Source: a candidate division KSB1 bacterium
GTDB taxonomy: Bacteria > Zhuqueibacterota > JdFR-76 > DREG01
Length of the DNA: 6,852 nt
Assembly: GCA_022566355.1 (NCBI GenBank)
Contig: JADFJB010000173.1
Span: 1 to 6,852 of the forward strand
Direction: 5' to 3'
This document shows, in pieces, positions 3,259 to 6,213 of this stretch (its first letter is position 1; the number at the start of each line of letters is the position of its first letter). The notes beneath the pieces were generated by a model. It did not search any database and was not told where the DNA came from. It saw nothing but the letters and a program-made list of their open reading frames with translations. The translations under genes were made by a program, and so were the position numbers.

Positions 3259-4707
3259 ATGTTTAAAGATCAACCTAGAGGACTGCCCGTTCTGTTTTTT
3301 ACGGAAATGTGGGAGCGGTTTAGCTATTATGGTATGCGGGCATTACTGGTTTTATTTATGACAGCTGCTGTGGCGGAAGGCGGCCTTGGTTTAGAAATTG
3401 CGATAGCGACCGCTATTTACGGTTTGTATACATTCGGTGTCTACGCAATGGCGATACCCGGTGGTTGGATTGCTGACAAATTGATTGGTCAACGCCGAGC
3501 CGTACTTATCGGCGGTATCATAATTGCTCTCGGACACTACACACTTGCCTTACCCATGCTATGGACATTTTACCTGGGCTTGCTCCTGGTAATTATGGGA
3601 ACGGGTTTATTGAAGCCAAATGTGAGCGCCATTGTTGGCGAACTTTATCCGGAGGGCGGGGCCAGACGTGACGCAGGGTTCTCGATTTTTTATATGGGAA
3701 TTAATGTTGGAGCAGTATTAGGTCAGTCAGTATGTGCCTTGCTGGGAGAAAAAGTTGACTGGCACTTGGGTTTTGGCGCCGCGGCTATTGGTATGACCTT
3801 CGGTATTATTCAATATGTTGCCGGCAAAAAGCACCTGCAAAATGTGGGCGAACTCAAAGGGGATTATGCCAAAGAGTCGAGTATAAAGGCAGCAAAGAAG
3901 CAATTCATTATTGGTATTGGCATTGTCCTGGCATTAATAGTAGCATTTGTGTTATATCTGCAAACCACTACATCATTTGATATCGTTAGTTTTGCCGAGA
4001 ACATCGGGCTTTCGATTACGGCAATAGCCTTTATATACTTTACTTTGATCATAATATTTGTGTGTAAAAATTCAAATGAAAAAAAACGTGTTGGATTAAT
4101 TTGGATTCTATTTCTCGGCGCGGCTCTTTTTTGGAGCGGTTTTGAACAAGCCGGCTCGTCGATGAACCTGTTTGCCAGGGATTTTACAGACCGAATGGCA
4201 TTTGGCTGGGAGGTCCCTACTGGTTGGTTGCAGAGCATCAACCCAATATTCATCGTAATTTTAGCGCCGGTCATGGGTATGTTATGGGTACGATTAGGTG
4301 ACAAAAATCCAAATATACCCATTAAATTTGGCATAGGGCTGGTTTTACTTGGAGTTGGATTTTTTGTAATAGCCTGGGGAGCTTCCTTTATAGAAGCGGG
4401 GAAAGTGAGTCCTATGTGGTTAGTCGTTACTTACTTTTTCCATACCGTCGGTGAATTGTGTCTGAGCCCGGTTGGATTGAGCAGTATCACGAAACTTTCA
4501 CCGGATCGTCTTGTCGGCCAGATGATGGGAACCTGGTTTATGGGCGCCGCGTTGGGCAACCTGATTGCAGGCCTTGTCGCTGGTTACATTGAAAAGCTGC
4601 CGCAAAATGAATTGTACGCAGTGGTTGCCGCTATTGTTATGGTATCTGGTTTTATGTTCTTGCTACTTCAAAAACCGATAAACAAGCTTTCCTGCGGTAT
4701 AAAATAA
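3259..4707 (+). CDS. Proton-dependent oligopeptide transporter (POT/PTR family, MFS)
   Basis: This 482-residue inner-membrane protein has about fourteen hydrophobic segments and the usual length for bacterial POT carriers, which import di- and tripeptides with protons. Helix 1 carries the family motif ExxERFxYYG as EMWERFSYYG (16-25), with E16, E19 and R20 all present. K119 in GLLKPN corresponds to the conserved substrate/proton-coupling lysine of helix 4. The second PTR signature is RDAGFSIFYMGINVGA (137-152). The C-terminal half has GFEQAGSSMNLF (around 294-305), E399 in HTVGELCLSP, matching the conserved helix-10 glutamate, and PDRLVGQMMGTWFMGAALGN (415-434). All key residues are present, so it is probably functional. 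The strong Shine-Dalgarno site sets the start. It appears monocistronic, with a long upstream spacer and a hairpin downstream. Exact substrate preference cannot be read from sequence. Confidence 0.96.
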   Translation: MFKDQPRGLPVLFFTEMWERFSYYGMRALLVLFMTAAVAEGGLGLEIAIATAIYGLYTFGVYAMAIPGGWIADKLIGQRRAVLIGGIIIALGHYTLALPMLWTFYLGLLLVIMGTGLLKPNVSAIVGELYPEGGARRDAGFSIFYMGINVGAVLGQSVCALLGEKVDWHLGFGAAAIGMTFGIIQYVAGKKHLQNVGELKGDYAKESSIKAAKKQFIIGIGIVLALIVAFVLYLQTTTSFDIVSFAENIGLSITAIAFIYFTLIIIFVCKNSNEKKRVGLIWILFLGAALFWSGFEQAGSSMNLFARDFTDRMAFGWEVPTGWLQSINPIFIVILAPVMGMLWVRLGDKNPNIPIKFGIGLVLLGVGFFVIAWGASFIEAGKVSPMWLVVTYFFHTVGELCLSPVGLSSITKLSPDRLVGQMMGTWFMGAALGNLIAGLVAGYIEKLPQNELYAVVAAIVMVSGFMFLLLQKPINKLSCGIK

Positions 4708-5123: not shown

Positions 5124-5446
5124 ATGCAAGTATCAAGATTTGAGTTTATTAAATCAATCTTGATCCTACCAAAGGGAAGAGAAATAAAAAAAACCGCCCT
5201 TGTTTAATAATTTTACCGAATGAAATGAACCATTATATTAGCACAATCGTTATTGCACCAATGACCACAAAAATACATGGTTATCCTTCCCGGGTCAAAT
5301 GCAAATTTTCCGGCAAAGATTGCCAAATCGTTTTAGATCAAATCAGGTCTGTTTATAAATCTCGCTTAATCAAAAAGATAGGGAAAATAAAAAATAAAAC
5401 CCAGATTACGGTTTTAGAAATTTTACAAGAGATGTTTGCCTGGTAA
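5124..5446 (+). pseudogene. mazF: mazF toxin remnant, frameshifted near its 5' end
   Basis: MazF is an mRNA-cleaving endoribonuclease. The C-terminal two thirds is clear from 5225 (MNHYISTIVIAPMTTKIHG through LQEMFAW), but the N-terminal third is split between frames. From ATG 5124 one frame reads MQVSRFE, the usual MazF start. INLDPTKG then appears in the frame of the C-terminal part from 5153, just after an in-frame TAA (5150-5152). GREIKKT, the consensus continuation, appears back in the first frame (5175-5195). RPCLIILPNEMNHY then continues in the C-terminal frame from 5195. This implies a 1-nt loss in 5143-5152, and perhaps a compensated gain near 5174-5176 and loss near 5192-5195. Off-consensus residues (ILPNE for ISPNE, KDCQ for KDGQ, SVYKS for TVDKS) support decay. 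The catalytic Arg (RP, 5195) and Thr (APMT, 5264) codons remain. Sequencing or assembly error, especially at the A8 run 5186-5193, is the alternative. Confidence 0.85.
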
Positions 5447-5595: not shown

Positions 5596-6213
5596 ATGTG
5601 GAAAATTAGAGGCAAAGAATTAGCGCAAAAATTCAATCAAAGGAAAATATTTGATAATATTTCCTTTGAAATTAGAAGCGGCGAATCAATAGCGATCACA
5701 GGTGCCAACGGCTCAGGCAAAACGACGCTGCTACGGATCATCAGTCAACTGTTGCGACCGAGTGCCGGGAAAATTACTTTCCATGAAAACCAGGTTGAGA
5801 TAAAAAGAGAGAAGCTCTATGTAGCTATTGGGCTTGTTGGCCCTTATCTGCAATTATATAATCAGCTTACTGCGCTAGAGAACTATTCATTCTTCCGCAG
5901 AATCCGGGGTTTGCCTGCTAATATCCCCCACTTCAAAAAACTGATGAGCAGAGTCGGATTGGCTGGTAGAGAAGCAGACGAACTAAGGAATTATTCTTCC
6001 GGAATGCTGCAAAGAATGAAATACGTATGTGCATTACTTCACGAACCGGAAATTCTTTTGGTTGATGAACCAACGTCTAATTTGGATGAAGCTGGCTCTC
6101 AAATAGTTTTCGAAATTATGGAGCAGCAAAAGAAAAACAAAATATTGATTTTAGCGACCAACAATAAAGACGAGGTAAAATTTGGCGACAGTACAATCGA
6201 GCTTACTGTATAA
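5596..6213 (+). CDS. ccmA: Heme exporter-type ABC ATPase CcmA
   Basis: This is a complete 205-residue nucleotide-binding subunit, the usual CcmA size. It shows Walker A GANGSGKTT (36-44), the GPYLQLYNQLTALEN segment that holds the Q-loop region (82-96), signature YSSGMLQR (133-140) in place of the canonical LSGGQ, and Walker B EILLVDEP with D157/E158, then a D-loop SNLD (161-164). The H-loop position is Asn (N189 in LATNNKDE) instead of His. In System I cytochrome c maturation, CcmA with CcmB and CcmC drives ATP-dependent release of heme-loaded CcmE at the inner membrane. The assignment rests on the fold plus the following ccmB gene; alone it could be another small ABC ATPase. The ATG has no evident Shine-Dalgarno site, but the protein N-terminus begins at the normal place and an in-frame stop (5563-5565) lies upstream. 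Confidence 0.88.
   Translation: MWKIRGKELAQKFNQRKIFDNISFEIRSGESIAITGANGSGKTTLLRIISQLLRPSAGKITFHENQVEIKREKLYVAIGLVGPYLQLYNQLTALENYSFFRRIRGLPANIPHFKKLMSRVGLAGREADELRNYSSGMLQRMKYVCALLHEPEILLVDEPTSNLDEAGSQIVFEIMEQQKKNKILILATNNKDEVKFGDSTIELTV
6172..6175 (+). promoter_or_regulatory. Ribosome binding site deciding the TTG start of ccmB
   Basis: GAGG lies inside the end of ccmA, 6 nt before TTG at 6182-6184. The ccmB frame is open only from 6179 (a stop occupies 6176-6178) and has no ATG until far into the protein, so this site and the TTG together give the best start. Confidence 0.65.

Follow-up and report, generated by a model that had tools for sequence, protein, structure and literature searches.

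Antitoxin and Toxin Sequences at the Locus

The window analyzed, i.e., the complete contig C173, originates from the genome of an uncultured bacterium (4.62 Mb in total, completeness 98.5%) and harbors a MazE-type antitoxin gene, followed directly downstream by sequence of a MazF/PemK-type toxin. The corresponding features are summarized in Table 1.

Table 1. Features of the mazE/mazF locus and its surroundings. Positions refer to the window.
Feature	Position	Strand	Evidence or remark
Contig C173 (entire window)	6852 bp		One of 213 contigs
Peptide:H+ symporter gene	3259-4707		5' neighbor of the mazE/mazF locus
MazE-type antitoxin gene, intact, 85 aa	4866..5123	+	PF04014, E = 1.5e-6, above cut-off
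mazF toxin pseudogene, 323 nt, net -1	5124..5446	+	PF02452, E = 7.3e-23, one internal TAA
Lesion 1, single-base shift between the MQVSRFE and NLDP blocks	5142..5152	+	Frameshift-aware alignment; stop codon (TAA 5150-5152) inside
Lesion 2, highly likely single-base shift before GREIKKT	~5171..5174	+	GREIKKT scoring
Lesion 3, highly likely single-base shift between GREIKKT and RPCLII	~5193..5196	+	Alignment and GREIKKT scoring; just past the A8 run
Longest toxin ORF left, C-terminal fragment, 73 aa	5225..5446	+	PF02452 positions 32-109, E = 9e-13
Heme-exporter-like ABC ATPase gene	5596-6213		3' neighbor of the mazE/mazF locus

The antitoxin gene was found to be an uninterrupted reading frame, as an earlier first-pass annotation of this DNA had claimed, and encodes an AbrB/MazE domain followed by a conserved acidic, Trp-containing C-terminal tail (...WNDEEWEW), which has been kept. 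Related antitoxins, with identities between 44% and 57%, were identified in nine further genomes belonging to the phylum; when only the antitoxin was used to search genome contigs, no relative emerged. Considering the 17 columns conserved to at least 95%, the antitoxin departs from the consensus at one (controls: zero to two), and at the 90% level, two out of 19 columns were changed, placing it towards the upper end of the controls.

The toxin sequence begins immediately past the antitoxin stop codon, and its PF02452 match spans positions 5144-5437. In the first-pass annotation, the segments MQVSRFE and GREIKKT had been assigned to the frame of position 5124, and INLDPTKG as well as RPCLII up to the end to the frame of position 5225; all four proved to be placed correctly. 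Their spacing is likewise that of an intact MazF, as had been stated, with approximately 11 codons preceding NLDP and another 95-97 codons from this motif onwards, up to the stop, as in the intact homologues. The internal TAA lies in the frame of the conserved toxin body, which differs from the frame of the start codon. It was also correctly anticipated that this stop and the net change of -1 prevent full-length translation. Since both leave no intact toxin, we infer that the ribonuclease half of the locus is dead. The longest fragment left lacks the first strand and the Arg-Pro segment.

Among the same-order genomes checked, relatives of the flanking genes, encoding the peptide transporter and the heme-exporter-like ABC ATPase, were found without an adjoining mazEF, which suggests that the locus was inserted in the host lineage. 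The mazEF locus was not found in the other genomes of the same family that were searched, and the relatives carrying the pair belong to other families of the phylum. Upstream of the antitoxin gene, six promoter-like sites were matched, which is near the expectation from shuffled sequences (mean 3.7, sd 1.6). The strongest inverted repeat in this upstream scan (4728-4743/4756-4771; 16 nt, 88% complementary, with a 12-nt loop) is located just 3' of the peptide transporter gene and possibly represents a terminator or a regulatory structure.

Frame Changes within the Toxin Gene

Eight relatives from the phylum (L010-L015, L017, and L018) feature an intact toxin directly 3' of a related antitoxin, and the toxin body of the window shares 54-64% identity with these intact MazF sequences. 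Together with 80 wider homologues, obtained from a contig scan with the toxin alignment, they constitute the set of 88 homologues used for comparison. MazE is encoded directly 5' of MazF in 77 out of the 80 wider homologues, the remaining three offering 17-127 nt of upstream sequence only.

Frameshift-aware alignment against a profile of the phylum relatives placed one shift near 5142-5143 at almost any penalty, and accepted two extra shifts at low penalty only. A separate out-of-frame test, based on the 88 homologues, addressed the segment GREIKKT. With the reading displaced by one base from the body frame, it achieved 22.0 bits against the profile (mean of the true segment in intact homologues: 23.0 bits), compared to -1.6 bits for the body-frame reading GKRNKKN. 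A score of 22.0 bits was not reached by any of the 13,904 seven-codon segments taken out of frame from the intact homologues. These values argue for two further, mutually compensating shifts. Thus, lesion 1 is regarded as certain and lesions 2 and 3 as highly likely, as deduced from the sequence comparisons. The first-pass annotation had allowed for one to three indels, a range that can now be replaced by three. It had also suspected the A8 run as a lesion, which has to be withdrawn, as the same run is normal in the family (at least seven A in 14 out of 80 homologues, two of them having eight A with an intact frame).

Slippage of the ribosome or RNA polymerase, for example at the A8 run, could in principle yield low-level full-length toxin by programmed recoding. 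From the ATG at 5124, no stop codon interrupts the reading frame before A AAA AAA, where a -1 shift would fuse GREIKK to RPCLII at the normal length. However, residues 8-16 would stay out of register and be devoid of the conserved NLDPT, homologues featuring like A-runs read straight through them, a correct product would presuppose three separate recoding events, and the excess of conserved-site substitutions described below speaks against selection on the product. Recoding is therefore considered extremely unlikely, and a programmed frameshift at the A8 run was rejected, this run being common to intact homologues and the segment preceding it being out of register.

Decay or Sequencing Error

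The toxin sequence of the window was changed at seven out of 39 columns conserved to at least 95% (E20R, I21N, S31L, I43V, G67C, T76S, and D78Y). Among the 88 controls, 44 showed no change, 31 one, nine two, three three, and one four. The eight controls from the phylum had been identified by way of their antitoxins and scored between 0 and 4; the 80 wider homologues had been picked by conserved motifs, which favors conservation at some columns. The window toxin is thus the most changed of the 89 sequences compared. E20R and I21N result from the compensating shifts and cannot be counted as independent, but the other five changes still exceed the count of every control. Constraint is therefore relaxed in the toxin (7/39) and kept in the antitoxin (1/17).

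An intact mazF and a functional pair, disguised by assembly or sequencing errors, would be an alternative explanation, already raised as a doubt in the first-pass annotation, which is in agreement with the short length of the contig, with its origin from an assembly resembling a metagenome bin, and with the position of the shifts next to short homopolymers. However, three shifts within approximately 55 nt have to be compared with none in approximately 5.6 kb of coding sequence in the remainder of the same contig, which contains 38 homopolymers of at least five bases. ORF lengths in a sample of 298 kb of the host genome were normal (mean 347 aa), and neither the nine other PF02452 matches of this genome nor the ABC ATPase matches listed for it contain stops. 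Moreover, S31L, G67C, D78Y, and others are substitutions rather than indel errors. Indel errors cannot cause conserved-site substitutions in the toxin and at the same time spare the antitoxin, which indicates decay. Considering the excess of substitutions, the clean 5.6 kb, and the nine stop-free mazF-like matches, an erroneously interrupted but functional gene appears very unlikely, and a true loss of constraint on the toxin gene is much the likelier reading compared to assembly error alone. Nevertheless, one of the three shifts could be a sequencing error. The claim of the first-pass annotation that mazF is broken beside an intact antitoxin is therefore supported by the frame, the homologue comparison, and the conserved-column counts.

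Broken mazF copies are no rarity among genomes of the phylum. Among approximately 150 PF02452 matches listed for 82 genomes, seven contain internal stops, including the toxin of the window. At the locus of the ninth antitoxin relative (L016, genome G035), mazF possesses a frameshift of its own in the middle of the gene, and the toxin adjoining a further, weaker antitoxin match (L020) is truncated; these two represent the broken toxins among the eleven closest MazE loci. In the latter genome (G007; L020/L024), a frame break in the antitoxin accompanies the truncated toxin. In the mazF of a relative from Calditrichaceae (L068; toxin start at ~1477-1500), the stretch separating the upstream stop from the conserved RFEVYL block was observed to lack ATG, GTG, and TTG; translation may begin at a rare codon here, or the start may be damaged.

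Proposed History and Role of the Orphan Antitoxin

The locus very probably represents a MazEF-type (type II) toxin-antitoxin operon that has degraded, the toxin having been inactivated and the antitoxin being left over. It shares with MazEF/PemIK/Kis-Kid systems (PF04014 and PF02452) the order of antitoxin and toxin, abutting genes, an AbrB/MazE-type antitoxin, and a MazF-family toxin, and the profile recovers MazF, EndoA, and Kid chains of known structure. It differs from them in the toxin frame, which is broken three times, and in the loss of conserved residues. The chromosomal ChpIK of Leptospira is likewise a pair of a MazF-family toxin and an AbrB/MazE-type antitoxin. Pairs of MazF and AbrB/MazE are also encoded on Leptospira plasmids, the plasmid toxin being 58.5% identical to that of the phylum relative L012; these pairs are annotated as intact, whereas the toxin of the window is a pseudogene. 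Furthermore, orphan antitoxins left behind by degraded toxins have been described for Caulobacter, where ParD is encoded beside a parE pseudogene, and for Shigella, where yacB carries a frameshift (PMC7354431). These cases resemble the locus by an intact antitoxin adjoining a broken toxin gene, but concern other toxin families, and the host studied here is an uncultured bacterium. The locus is nothing new in kind; broken toxins adjoining intact antitoxins have been described before (PMC7354431). It provides a clear example of how a toxin-antitoxin system dies, the toxin going first and being outlived by the antitoxin. It should not be annotated as a working mazEF pair, and the 73 aa fragment should not be annotated as a MazF. 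Beyond these points, it represents routine genome decay, affecting a very common type of system.

Initially, a single-base frame change near the start of mazF would have inactivated the toxin. Two further one-base changes that offset each other, as well as several substitutions at otherwise invariant positions, probably followed, in this presumed order, and functional ribonuclease would no longer be made. The antitoxin has remained in frame, has retained its tail, and shows essentially the same conservation as the antitoxins of working pairs. Most likely, it is a leftover, orphaned fairly recently, whose harmlessness has let it persist.

As suggested in the first-pass annotation, the orphan antitoxin may bind its own promoter or neutralize a related toxin, which could be an incoming one. 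Within the host genome, a second copy of the mazEF locus was not found, and the other MazF-like proteins include none closely related to the toxin, the highest identity in a full-length match being approximately 30% (C18). Given this low identity, a target of neutralization inside the host genome is unlikely.

The antitoxin could also have been kept by selection as an anti-addiction gene against related MazF toxins of plasmids and phages. Its conservation, including that of the tail, would agree with such a role, as would the occurrence of related intact MazF on plasmids, for example of Leptospira, and on a viral contig (60% identity), and the idea has been discussed for orphan antitoxins (PMC7354431). 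However, recent breakage of the toxin alone predicts the same pattern and needs no function, a closely related toxin was not found in the host genome, and, according to the review, it has yet to be shown that orphan antitoxins commonly serve in anti-addiction (PMC7354431). Maintenance by selection is accordingly rated as unlikely, and selection acting after toxin loss, with an anti-addiction or anti-phage effect against incoming MazF-bearing elements, as rather improbable. Counting the decayed toxin, the host genome (G000, L001-L008) features a fairly rich set of ten MazF/PemK-like matches, accompanied by several antitoxin types, MazE-like and others.
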